A DNA stretch of 63,805 bases from Fibrobacterota bacterium (GTDB lineage Bacteria > Fibrobacterota > Fibrobacteria > UBA11236). Under the pieces are notes generated by a model that did no database searches, was not told the DNA's origin, and saw only the letters and a list, made by a program, of their open reading frames with translations. The translations under genes were made by a program, and so were the position numbers. Positions 34,849-40,644 of this stretch are shown here, in pieces; the first letter of the stretch is position 1, and the number at the start of each line of letters is the position of its first letter. The DNA is taken from assembly GCA_028287505.1 (NCBI GenBank), contig JAQBPN010000041.1, forward strand, positions 1 to 63,805, written 5' to 3'.

Positions 34849-34996
34849 TCGTCGGGCGACCGGTGCGCTTCTGAATCACATTTCACCACAATTTGCTTGG
34901 CACCTCGGCGTCGGGCGTAAAGAAAAAGAGAAATCCAGGAGCCTCCCTCTCCTGCTTTTTCTTTACGCCCGACGCCCGACGCCCGTCGCCCGACGA
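34849..34996. repeat. Nested long inverted repeat, MITE- or REP-like
   Basis: Three nested arm pairs are visible. The outer pair is TCGTCGGGCGAC (34849-34860) with GTCGCCCGACGA (34985-34996). The middle pair is a perfect 22-bp pair, 34907-34928 with 34955-34976, containing GGGCGTAAAGAAAAAG. The inner pair is CAGGAG (34936-34941) with CTCCTG (34949-34954). The right side also has tandem GACGCCC units. No open reading frame lies in it. It sits between the STAS gene and the gcvT promoter. Confidence 0.8.
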
Positions 34997-36331: not shown

Positions 36332-39253
36332 TTGTCCATAAAGACTGCCAAGCGCAAGGCGAAGAAACCGGCGCCCAAGTCCAAGGGCAAGGAAGAACCG
36401 GAAGCCGAAGAGGAACGCGGACATCTGATCCGGGAAGGCTGGGGGCTGTTGCTCCTGTCCGTCTCCCTGGTCACCGTCATCGCCTTGCTTTCCAGTTTCG
36501 CGAATCCCGCAACCACCAATATTCTTGGTCCCTACCTGGGCGATTGGTGGGCGAGCACGCTCAACCAGTTCGCGGGCGGCCTACCCATCATCTTCCTGGT
36601 GGCGGCCGTAGCCACCCTCGGATTCAAGCTGGTCCTGGCCCGGGGCGGCCTGCGCATCCGGCTGGTTCTGGCTTTGGCGCTGCTTTTCGTTTCCACCGGC
36701 GTCCTGCTCAGCATCAAGAACATCGCCAAGACCGATTTCCAACCCGTGGATTACCAGCTTTCCGGCGGTTATCTGGGCAACTTCCTGGTCCAGAAATGCT
36801 TTCTGCCCGTGTTCGGGGCCGGACAGTTCGGTCCTTATCTGATCACGGCCATCGCCACCCTCTTCATTCTCATCTGGGGTTTCCGCATGAGCGTGGTGTC
36901 CGTGTCCGAAAAATCGGCCGCTTCCATCGTATTCGTGGGACGCCCTTTCTTTCTGGGCCTGAGGAGGCTGTGGAGCCGTCCGGAAGGCGAGGCGGAAGCC
37001 GAGGCCGAAGCCGAAAGAGCGGCCGCGGAGAATGAGGCCGGGATAGCGGCGGCGGAAATCGTCAAAGCGCGCTTGAATGCCAAAGCCGATCGCAATCGCA
37101 CCGCCTTGGCCAAATTCCCCCTTCCCGACGAGGAAGCGGAAGCGAAGCCGGAAGGCAAACGCAAACGGGGCGCAGCTGATAAGGGCGACTCCATGGACGA
37201 CCGTTACGCCACCTCTTCCTTGCAGAAATCGCCGGTGCTTTCATCGAACAATTTCCTGGGTAACCCCGATGTGACCCGGGAAGACGAGTCTGCCGAAGAC
37301 ATCTCCCAAATCGACATGAACGACCCCTTGGCCGTCCGCAAATCCAGGGATTTGAACCTGGAGCGCAAGCGCGTGTCGGAGCTCAATGAGTGGGAAATCA
37401 AATCCCGCGATCCGGAAATCGCGGGCATGTTGATGAAGGAGAAAGCCAAGGAAAAGGCGAAAGCGGAGGCGGCCAAAGAAGCGGAAGCCCTGAATCCCGG
37501 TGCCGACGCGGAGGACGATAAAGACGTCCAGGCCGGCAAAGGCTCCGGAAAAAAAGGACGCAAGAAGGATCCTGCCGAGGAAAGCCCGGCCAAAATCGCG
37601 CCCGCGGAGGAAAACACGCCTCTCATTCTCAAGCGCATGACCGTGGACGCCGATGAGGATGTCGAATCGGAGATCGATGGGGAAGAGGACGAATCCCCGG
37701 ATGGGATCGCCGTAGAGGGAGTCCGCCCGGTCGTCAAAGCTCCGGTGATTCCCAAGCCGCCCAAGCCGGAAGTCAAATACGATCCCTATCGCGTTCCTTC
37801 CCACGACGAGGTTTTCGCGGAGCCGCCCAAGCAGCCCCTGGAGTTCACGGAAGAGGAGCTGCGCGAACAGTCCAAGGTTCTCGAGGACCAGTTGATCAAT
37901 TTCAAGGTGATGGGAAAAGTCACGCAGATCTGTCCCGGGCCCGTCATCACCCGCTACGAGGTGGAATTGGCTCCCGGCGTCAAGGTGAGCCGCATCAGCA
38001 CCCTGGCCGACGATCTGGCCCTGGCTCTCAAGGCCAAAAGCATCCGCATCCTGGCGCCCATCCCGGGCAAATCCGTGGTCGGCATCGAAGTGCCCAACCG
38101 CAAAGCCCAGATCGTCTACATCAAGGAAATCCTGCGCGCCCCGGAATTCGCCAAGGAAGACGATACCCTGAAAATCTGCCTGGGCAAGACCATCGCCGGG
38201 GAACCGTACGTGATGGACCTGACCCGCGCCCCGCATCTGCTCATCGCGGGCCAGACCGGCTCGGGGAAATCCGTGTGCATCAACAGCATCATGGCCTCCT
38301 TCCTGTGCTCGAAAACGCCGGATGAGCTTCGCATGATCCTGGTCGATCCCAAGGTGGTCGAGCTCAAGCCTTACGACGCCATTCCGCACCTGCTCTATCC
38401 CGTCATCACCCAGCCGGACGTGGCCGTGCAGGCCTTGAAATGGTCCACCTTCGAGATGGACCGCCGTTACGAGGTGCTGGCCCAATGCGGCGTCCGCAAC
38501 ATCAAGGGATTCAACGCCAAGGTCAAGGAAGGCATACTTCCCGAGTCCATGGACGACGACGACAAGAAGATCATGCCCTACATCGTCATCGTCATCGATG
38601 AGCTTGCGGACCTGATGATGGTGGCCGGAAAGGAAGTGGAAACCAACATCGCCCGCATCGCCCAGAAGGCGCGCGCGGTGGGCATCCACCTGATCCTGGC
38701 CACCCAGCGTCCCTCCACCAACGTCATCACGGGAACCATCAAGGCGAATCTGCCCACGCGCATTTCCTTCCAGGTGGCCAGCCAGATCGATGCGCGCACC
38801 ATCATGGACAAGATGGGCGCGGAGAAGCTTCTGGGACGCGGCGACATGCTGTTCCGTCCCATCGAGTTCCCGGAGCCCGTCCGCCTGCATGGTTGCTTCC
38901 TGGACGATGCCCAGGCGGAAAGGCTGGCCCTGGTGGCTTCCGAACAGCACGTGAACTATCCGCAGATCCAGTCCTTCAACCTGGAAGACGATCCTTCCTC
39001 CGAAGGCGGCAAAGATGAGCCGCGCGATGAGAAATTCCGGGAGGCGGCTGAGCTGGTGGTACAGGTGAAGCAGGCTTCGGTGTCTTTGCTTCAGCGCAGA
39101 CTGGGAATCGGCTATGCGCGCTCGGGACGGCTGGTGGACCAGTTGGAGCGGGCCGGCATTGTGGGGCGGGAGCGCGGGAGTAAGCCGCGCGAGGTCCTTA
39201 TGAGCGCGGAGGAACTGCAGTCGTTCCTGTCTTCTGGTTTGAATGACGATTGA
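36332..39253 (+). CDS. ftsK: FtsK/SpoIIIE DNA translocase
   Basis: A 973-residue septal DNA pump. The start is TTG 36332, 13 bases after gcvT ends, with only a weak ribosome-binding site. A basic N-terminus is followed by four membrane helices (residues about 35-190). An acidic, Lys/Glu/Ala-rich linker extends to about residue 470. The motor domain has Walker A G-Q-T-G-S-G-K-S (near 38250), Walker B IVIVIDELADLMM, and the conserved ATQRPSTNVITGTIKANLPT. The C-terminal gamma winged-helix (SLLQRRLGIGYARSGRLVDQ) reads chromosomal KOPS-type sites. All parts of a full-length translocase are present. Confidence 0.96.
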   Translation: MSIKTAKRKAKKPAPKSKGKEEPEAEEERGHLIREGWGLLLLSVSLVTVIALLSSFANPATTNILGPYLGDWWASTLNQFAGGLPIIFLVAAVATLGFKLVLARGGLRIRLVLALALLFVSTGVLLSIKNIAKTDFQPVDYQLSGGYLGNFLVQKCFLPVFGAGQFGPYLITAIATLFILIWGFRMSVVSVSEKSAASIVFVGRPFFLGLRRLWSRPEGEAEAEAEAERAAAENEAGIAAAEIVKARLNAKADRNRTALAKFPLPDEEAEAKPEGKRKRGAADKGDSMDDRYATSSLQKSPVLSSNNFLGNPDVTREDESAEDISQIDMNDPLAVRKSRDLNLERKRVSELNEWEIKSRDPEIAGMLMKEKAKEKAKAEAAKEAEALNPGADAEDDKDVQAGKGSGKKGRKKDPAEESPAKIAPAEENTPLILKRMTVDADEDVESEIDGEEDESPDGIAVEGVRPVVKAPVIPKPPKPEVKYDPYRVPSHDEVFAEPPKQPLEFTEEELREQSKVLEDQLINFKVMGKVTQICPGPVITRYEVELAPGVKVSRISTLADDLALALKAKSIRILAPIPGKSVVGIEVPNRKAQIVYIKEILRAPEFAKEDDTLKICLGKTIAGEPYVMDLTRAPHLLIAGQTGSGKSVCINSIMASFLCSKTPDELRMILVDPKVVELKPYDAIPHLLYPVITQPDVAVQALKWSTFEMDRRYEVLAQCGVRNIKGFNAKVKEGILPESMDDDDKKIMPYIVIVIDELADLMMVAGKEVETNIARIAQKARAVGIHLILATQRPSTNVITGTIKANLPTRISFQVASQIDARTIMDKMGAEKLLGRGDMLFRPIEFPEPVRLHGCFLDDAQAERLALVASEQHVNYPQIQSFNLEDDPSSEGGKDEPRDEKFREAAELVVQVKQASVSLLQRRLGIGYARSGRLVDQLERAGIVGRERGSKPREVLMSAEELQSFLSSGLNDD

Positions 39254-39261
39254 CGCCCAGC

Positions 39262-39469
39262 GCCCCATGCTTGGGGGCGCTTCCCGCTCAGGCTTGCAGC
39301 TGATCTGAACGGGTGGGCTTCCGGTCGTCGCGGATTTGCGCGGGACCGCGGATCGACATCAACTCTCAGCGTGGTCTCGGTGCCGCGGTCCATCAACTCC
39401 CTGTAGAACACTGCGCAATTCCGCGACGACCTGCTGCAAAATCGCGGGAAGCGCCCCCAAGCACGGGGC
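39262..39469. repeat. 208-bp nested inverted repeat after ftsK
   Basis: Four coaxial arm pairs are readable: GCCCC (39262-39266) with GGGGC (39465-39469); a perfect 19-bp pair, 39269-39287 with 39444-39462; a 19-bp pair with one mismatch, 39323-39341 with 39413-39431; and GGACCGCGG (39343-39351) with CCGCGGTCC (39383-39391). A short minus-strand open frame crosses it but has no recognisable domain. The rest of the gap, 39470-39707, is strikingly G- and T-rich on the plus strand and holds no gene I can support. Confidence 0.8.
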
Positions 39470-39707
39470 TTTCACACGCCGGCAAAATTCATAAGACAAG
39501 ACGGCTGCGATTTTTCGCGTTGGGTGGGGAATTCGTTTGTCGTTTGGGGGTGGGTGGACGTCGAAATGGGGAGTGGGAGGTTGGTCGCTTGGGGCTCGCC
39601 GCGGTTCGGTGGGGCGAAGGTCTGGAGAGCCGCGCGGCGTTGGGGTTGGTACGATGAGGGGCTTGGCCTTTTTGTCGGCGAAGCCCTGGTTCCGGTTGGG
39701 TTTTGGA

Positions 39708-40382
39708 TCAATAGGTGCAGGAGAGGATCTTGTAGGACTTGATATTGGCCGCCACACCCCGGTCCCAGCCTCCCTGGATCATTTCCTGGGATTTGGCTTT
39801 GAGCGAGGCGGCCACTTTGCCGGACAGGTGGGCGGTTTTGGCGGCTTCGTTGGGGAAGACGTCCAGGATGGCGAATCGGTCCGGAGCGATGCGCAGGGCG
39901 TACCAAAGCAGGGTTTCGGGTTCGGTGGCTTCGATGATTTCGGCGGCGCCGGTGAGGAGTTTGGCCAGGACTTCTTCTTTGCCCGGCTTGGCCTGGAGAT
40001 CGATCCGCATGGCGAGATGGGCATGGGAGTAGTGGCTGTCGGAGATGACTGAGGCCAGAACTTTGGAGTTCTCGACGTTGGCCACGACGCCTTTTTCCCA
40101 GCCGCCTTCCACCGTTTCGGCGGAAGACTTCTTGAGGGCTTCGGCGACCATGCCGGCAAAGTGGGCATCACGGCCTTTAGGGTCCGGGAAGAAGTCCGCG
40201 ATGGCGAAGCCGGTAGGGTCCATTTGCAAGGCCATCCATTGCAAGGTTTGCGGTTCGGTTTTGCGGACCATGTCCGCGGCGCCTTTGAGCAGGTCGGCTA
40301 TGGCTTTTTCTTTCCCGGGGGCGGCTTTCATCCGGGTGAAGGTTCCCTCTTTGGCGATCTGGGTGGTTGCGGTCTGGTTCAT
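39708..40382 (-). CDS. Protein with two tandem ABM-like (dimeric alpha-beta barrel) domains
   Basis: A 224-residue protein. ATG 40382 is preferred because AAGGAG lies 7 bases upstream. It is an internal duplication: residues 10-100 and 115-215 each read A-x-P-G-K-E, then L-L-x-G-A-A, then a x-T-E-P-x-T-L-x-W block, then F-A-I-x-D-x-F-P, and each ends in G-G-W-x-x-G-V-x-A-N. The pattern matches the antibiotic-biosynthesis-monooxygenase/dimeric alpha-beta-barrel fold, so one chain probably forms a pseudo-dimer. Such proteins are small oxygenases or stress proteins with varied substrates. A 7-bp hairpin (40424-40430 with 40442-40448) lies in its leader. It is divergent from the peroxiredoxin gene. 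Confidence 0.82.
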   Translation of the reverse strand: MNQTATTQIAKEGTFTRMKAAPGKEKAIADLLKGAADMVRKTEPQTLQWMALQMDPTGFAIADFFPDPKGRDAHFAGMVAEALKKSSAETVEGGWEKGVVANVENSKVLASVISDSHYSHAHLAMRIDLQAKPGKEEVLAKLLTGAAEIIEATEPETLLWYALRIAPDRFAILDVFPNEAAKTAHLSGKVAASLKAKSQEMIQGGWDRGVAANIKSYKILSCTY

Positions 40383-40644
40383 GTTTTTCTCCTTGTGGGG
40401 GTGCCGGAGAGGGAGTAAATAATATCCTGGGCCGCGCTCCGCCAGGATGTAATCGACCACGTTGTTCGCCCACTCCTGATGGATAAGGACTCCCGGGAAT
40501 ACCCGATAATGACGGTATGGATTGGGCGTACGGCGATTGCGGCCAAGGTAACCACCCGGCCTCTTTCCCGATTCCCGATTTTTTACTCCTGTTTTGACCA
40601 GGTTTTTAATTTATTAGACCAAACTCAGGAACCAGGAGGACATC

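Follow-up and report, generated by a model that had tools for sequence, protein, structure and literature searches.

A hairpin-forming family of intergenic repeats, probably a non-autonomous element, in one uncultured genus of Fibrobacterota

The long hairpin that follows ftsK in the window analysed here (the whole 63,805-nt stretch of the Fibrobacterota contig JAQBPN010000041.1) is one copy of a repeat family whose members share an architecture of coaxial stems, keep their arms complementary at the DNA level, turn their 5' ends outwards to the nearer gene, form facing pairs, and are present or absent at the same gene junctions in different species of a single uncultured genus. The family is probably a non-coding, non-autonomous hairpin element of that genus that has spread between gene edges. 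A preliminary description of the site had offered a non-autonomous mobile element as one of three readings, and the further copies, the filled and empty junctions and the differences in copy number between sister species all speak for it. The family adds an undescribed intergenic repeat, with no obvious transposase, to a little-studied phylum. In what follows G000 is the window's own genome and G001 to G005 are five sister species of the same genus; all are draft assemblies, the sister records being metagenome assemblies.

The four coaxial arm pairs of a single long hairpin, as originally described, were recovered both by a mechanical search for inverted repeats and by folding (Table 1). Two of the pairs had been put at about 19 bp; the inner pair is indeed 19 nt long (39323-39341 with 39413-39431, 95% complementary), whereas the outer pair extends to 26 nt (96% complementary). 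Two further coaxial stems, of 7 bp (P2) and of 8 bp at the apex (P4), complete the structure. The inner 7 nt of the P1 5' arm, TTCCCGC, are common to family A copies, with 1 mismatch in one copy, and in several copies the 5' internal loop folds into a small side hairpin. Arms of this quality do exceed chance, with a fold z of about -9.5: as RNA the 208-nt hairpin reaches a minimum free energy of -134.4 kcal/mol (z -9.8; none of 200 shuffles was as low), and the DNA fold is -76.9 (z -9.3 against dinucleotide shuffles). When inverted repeats of at least 18 nt, at least 85% complementarity and a gap of at least 40 were sought, only the hairpin's two arm pairs were returned in the window, while comparable repeats were many in sampled relatives and nearly lacking in shuffled sequences, the counts being 12 in 261 kb of G003 against 0 in shuffles and 8 in 398 kb of G000 against 1. 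Only 8 nt separate the hairpin from the ftsK stop (39253), and the convergent gene lies 238 nt beyond it; it overlaps no credible gene in the ORF list or the codon-usage calls, in keeping with the earlier view that no coding gene accounts for it. The site has no match in Rfam 15. An ordinary intrinsic terminator was also considered; the T-run terminator searched for at the site was not found.

Table 1. The repeat element and its neighbours at the ftsK junction (positions are those of the window)
Feature	Positions	Strand	Basis or remark
ftsK (FtsK/SpoIIIE translocase, alpha and gamma domains)	36332-39253	+	ORF; Pfam PF01580, PF17854, PF09397
Hairpin module (208 nt) of the element, a family A copy	39262-39469	+	Inverted-repeat search, folds, R2 match
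P1 outer stem, 5' arm	39262-39287	+	Varies among copies, complementarity kept
Asymmetric internal loop, 5' side, conserved TCAGGC	39288-39293	+	Five-copy alignment
P2, 5' arm TTGCAGC	39294-39300	+	Five-copy alignment
5' internal loop, CTTCCGG-type motif at end	39301-39322	+	Alignment, fold
P3, 5' arm	39323-39342	+	Both-side change at 10 of 20 pairs, five copies compared
P4 apical stem, 5' arm GGACCGCG	39343-39350	+	Nearly invariant in family A
P4 apical stem, 3' arm CGCGGTCC	39384-39391	+	Alignment
One-sided 20-nt bulge 3' of P4	39392-39411	+	Present in all copies
P3, 3' arm	39412-39431	+	Inverted-repeat search, alignment
P2, 3' arm GCTGCAA	39433-39439	+	Alignment
Asymmetric internal loop, 3' side, conserved A-rich, AATC-type	39440-39443	+	Alignment
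P1 outer stem, 3' arm	39444-39469	+	Inverted-repeat search, alignment
3' tail, hairpin to convergent gene	39470-39708	+	Part repeated at other loci
Antibiotic biosynthesis monooxygenase-like (ABM) gene, convergent	39708-40388	-	ORF; Pfam PF03992

Both a second copy and conservation in relatives were found. DNA searches of the window's genome identified a copy behind a poly(A) polymerase/CCA-type gene (cca), with 93% identity over a 170-bp core, and a third, 82% identical, on contig C105, while sister species hold copies that are 70% (G002) and 68% (G004) identical, the latter directly behind ftsK (4 nt). These five copies align with four coaxial stems and show kept both-side changes in 16 of the 58 predicted pairs; the outer arms differ in sequence from copy to copy, yet are complementary in every aligned copy. 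A covariance model built from the five (R1, family A) recovers divergent hairpins of the same architecture (family B), to which scans of sampled DNA added more. A second model trained on 12 family B copies and no family A copy (R2) gives the window copy a score of 68.9 bits (E about 1e-10). In the loci scanned R2 gave 89 matches, 83 of them non-redundant, and made no match to unrelated long hairpins in L060, L128, L101 and L175. Counted per genome, as lower bounds with 150 candidates scored in each, R2 copies number at least 46 in G003, at least 20 in G005, at least 6 in G000, at least 5 in G004 and at least 2 in G002, with none in G001. The window's genome has about 9 copies in total and the genus at least some 83, in five of its six genomes, copy number varying more than 20-fold. 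A scan with stricter filters placed the carriers at 5 of 167 genomes of the phylum, in one genus of 40, and returned no match in the 161 other Fibrobacterota genomes searched; a search for plasmid relatives yielded a 32-nt chance match only.

Across the family the hairpin unit is about 150-290 bp long and alternates stems with conserved internal loops. P1 is variable (20-30 bp), and the asymmetric loop next to it has conserved bases; P3 is likewise variable (14-20 bp); the apical stem, with its one-sided 3' bulge, is nearly constant, being GCCCGCG/CGCGGGC in family B and GGACCGCG/CGCGGTCC in family A. In many family B copies a further stem lies outermost, and its inner edge bears a conserved GGTC[TC], a motif found there in 38 of the 83 copies against 2.4 expected.

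The repeated unit extends past the 208 bp of the preliminary description, which hold as the extent of the hairpin module. A stretch of the 3' tail (39570-39655) matches the tail of a copy at another locus of the same genome (contig C114, L216; 78% over 88 nt) and that of the ftsK copy of G004 (L123; 76% over 83 nt). As the tail thus recurs beside other copies, the repeated unit is longer than the hairpin. Tails are G-rich in family A copies, and several tails of sister copies contain tandem repeats.

Covariation is usually read as proof of a functional RNA, and here it is excellent. Both sides change in 24 of 33 pairs in family B (0 of 500 shuffles) and in 14 of 48 in family A, and both-side changes occupy 73 cells against 2 for one-side changes, an excess seen in orthologous copy pairs as well. 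This strong covariation, the conserved loops and the fact that many copies begin 4-35 nt past a stop codon could all be taken to indicate selection for RNA pairing in the helices of a small RNA or 3' UTR element. A transition in a G-C pair leaves G-T when it strikes one strand and A-C when it strikes the other, and RNA pairing tolerates G-T only. The modelled stems of 84 distinct copies contain 2556 Watson-Crick cells (93%), 26 G-T, 43 A-C and 110 other, whereas control stems from 19 tRNAs of the same genomes, a set whose filtering for 6 of 7 acceptor pairs trims A-C a little, contain 191, 25, 1 and 11, respectively (Fisher p 9e-8 for G-T against A-C, nominal). Because the covariance alignment treats G-U as pairing and so favours it, the result for the element is conservative. 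Since G-T is no commoner than A-C, unlike in tRNAs, it is as DNA that the arms are held complementary, a finding that speaks against the structured RNA that had been proposed for the site. Single copies, moreover, show no preferred strand relative to the 5' gene (27 sense, 26 antisense), and species of the one genus have anything from 0 to 46 copies. We therefore regard an RNA under selection for its helices as decidedly unlikely.

DNA-level complementarity may arise from template switching between the arms, from gene conversion, or from selection on the extruded DNA hairpin. Template switching creates and maintains hairpin complementarity (PMC8794818); it is known in E. coli and has been proposed for RNA genes (PMC7202029, PMC8794818). 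Hairpins shaped in this way (quasipalindrome correction) resemble the element in their both-side changes without one-side intermediates and in their near-perfect arms (PMC8794818, PMC7202029), but the process is a mutational mechanism rather than a repeat family, and here it would act on at least 83 diverged copies. The element is thus a clear natural case for maintenance by template switching or as a DNA hairpin, and a caution for automated searches for new RNAs.

Copies are intergenic and lie at gene edges, the gene boundaries being those of a simple caller based on codon usage. In 73 of 78 copies the hairpin turns its 5' end toward the nearer gene, the gap on that side being the smaller one; p is 1.5e-16, a nominal value as copies are related to one another; the same holds for 43 of the 48 unpaired copies alone. 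Behind a stop codon lie 38 of 83 copies (4-116 nt), and the remaining 45 face a start codon (15-446 nt). Neighbouring units within 1 kb are facing pairs in all 15 cases, 146-534 bp apart.

The same junction may be filled in one species and empty in another. Behind ftsK the element is present in G000 and G004, decayed in G003 and absent from G001, G002 and G005; beside an aldo/keto reductase gene, a locus readable in all the species except G005, it is present in G000, G004 and G003 and missing from G002 and G001. The cca junction is filled in G000 and G002; G004 has an unrelated long hairpin there (L101), and G001 and G003 have short hairpins of the ordinary sort. The HDOD-ftsY junction holds facing pairs in G003 and G005 and an unrelated hairpin in G002 (L175, 34-202 after the HDOD stop). 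Several sites are common to multiple species, and thus many copies are old. Intergenic flanks are saturated between species, so target-site duplications are not readable. The G003 remnant behind ftsK (L051, 2486-2560) belongs to family A; its 5' half is recognisable and its 3' arm is lost.

It had been suggested that the palindrome may be a chromosome-organisation site near a DNA translocase gene, and a dif- or KOPS-like site belonging beside ftsK would fit the distances of 8 nt in G000 and 4 nt in G004. The ftsK junction is, however, one of about 80 places, the other copies adjoining unrelated genes, and three of the six species have no copy there. Copies at other loci refute an ftsK-linked site as the explanation of the family, and the idea retains next to no probability. 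A host DNA site of a more general kind (a bidirectional transcription barrier, a supercoil sink or a nucleoid-protein site), immobile and with its hairpin under selection, is unlikely, although less so than a structured RNA. Consistent with such a site are the DNA-level complementarity, the strictly extragenic placement at gene edges, junctions kept in several species despite sequence divergence, and the unrelated long hairpins that sister species carry at the cca and HDOD-ftsY junctions. Against it, G001 has no copy and G002 few, and in three of the six species the element was lost from, or never present at, essential-gene junctions such as that of ftsK. Other long near-perfect intergenic hairpins without an R2 match occur at L060:10910-11071 (G000) and L128:6303-6475 (G002), and some R2-negative hairpins occupy junctions where sister species hold the described element.

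It is also conceivable that the outer arms are host terminator stems that insertion has split. Compared with swapped flanks, those past the outer arm show higher complementarity, with 25 of 82 exceeding the 95% level, but outermost stems resembling one another are seen repeatedly in the copies of G003.

As a non-autonomous element, the repeat would be spread by some enzyme and would tolerate the space just outside genes; its arms would stay matched as DNA, probably through template switching between them during replication or else through selection on the extruded hairpin, and its cores would be homogenised between copies. Against mobility, the 93% core identity of the ftsK and cca copies may reflect gene conversion instead of transposition. 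The hairpin at 39262-39469 is the only long stable one between the ftsK stop and the convergent gene, and thus probably serves to terminate the ftsK mRNA or to protect it. A bolder version of this reading, which we consider possible although rather doubtful, is that the family is a new kind of repeat, a tailed hairpin unit whose copying enzyme recognises the DNA fold and the loops instead of the arm sequence and yields facing pairs. If so, arms re-templated from each other would diverge freely, and only shape and loops would be inherited.

Scans for RVT_1 and Y1_Tnp domains linked no transposase or other mobilising enzyme to the element. Group IIC introns insert beside terminators, and the placement of the element resembles theirs; reverse transcriptase (PF00078), however, is absent from four of the five carriers and was found in G005 only. 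A drive by REPIN/RAYT would agree with the inverted pairs and spacer, which are like those of REPINs (PMC3116915), but the Y1 transposase domain (PF01797) was found in none of the five carriers (G000, G002, G003, G004 and G005). Both kinds of drive are largely refuted and very improbable. The RAYT-type Y1 domains of the genus are confined to element-free G001 (C47:25212-25571 and C51).

REPINs are inverted pairs of fixed orientation with a poorly conserved spacer, they also occur as singles, and they show compensatory hairpin changes (PMC3116915). The element shares the fixed orientation of its doublets, the singles and the compensatory changes, but each of its halves is a hairpin of about 200 bp, in contrast with REPs of 20-40 bp (PMC3733652), and its copies are much more diverged. 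Correia/NEMIS and ERIC are small non-coding intergenic palindromic repeats (PMC2229807); they have terminal inverted repeats with TA ends, of which none were seen in the element. Presence and absence at orthologous sites recall MITEs. Most alike in working is YPAL/RU-2. YPAL of Yersinia is a hairpin of about 168 bp that inserts in or beside dyad symmetry behind genes (PMC2229807, PMC2759123), a long imperfect palindrome that has internal inverted repeats, no terminal TA and filled and empty sites, and is not A+T-rich (PMC2229807); RU-2 folds as an interrupted single hairpin. Target-site duplications of 3-26 bp are a further mark of YPAL/RU-2. Length, hairpin and filled and empty sites are common to both, and placement behind genes applies to the 38 of our 83 copies that follow a stop codon but not to the 45 that face a start codon, whereas the arms of our element vary freely between copies, and it has a tail and forms facing pairs. 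There is no sequence similarity (local alignment z -1.6 to 1.8 for 23 elements against shuffles), and homology through a common GATCTTGAACGG stretch was rejected as no better than shuffles. The element thus files as a hairpin miniature intergenic repeat that is homologous to neither YPAL nor REPINs and is a member of no named family.

Several other repeats were encountered. A YPAL/RU-2-like repeat, 75% identical over 98% and unannotated, is present in wastewater E. coli (L191, NZ_CP058751.1 34719-34882, and four other records; four of the five are on plasmids); neither covariance model matched L191. In G003, L086:5331-5447 is an array of TAGGGTACAGGGTTCAGGGT-like units and inverted copies with a telomere-like look. 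The window itself contains a second intergenic inverted-repeat family, of GTCGGGCG/CGCCCGAC units (34849-34996), with a perfect 22-bp arm pair (34907-34928/34955-34976) and relatives in G000 (C101; L068, L069), G002 (L187) and G005 (L156).
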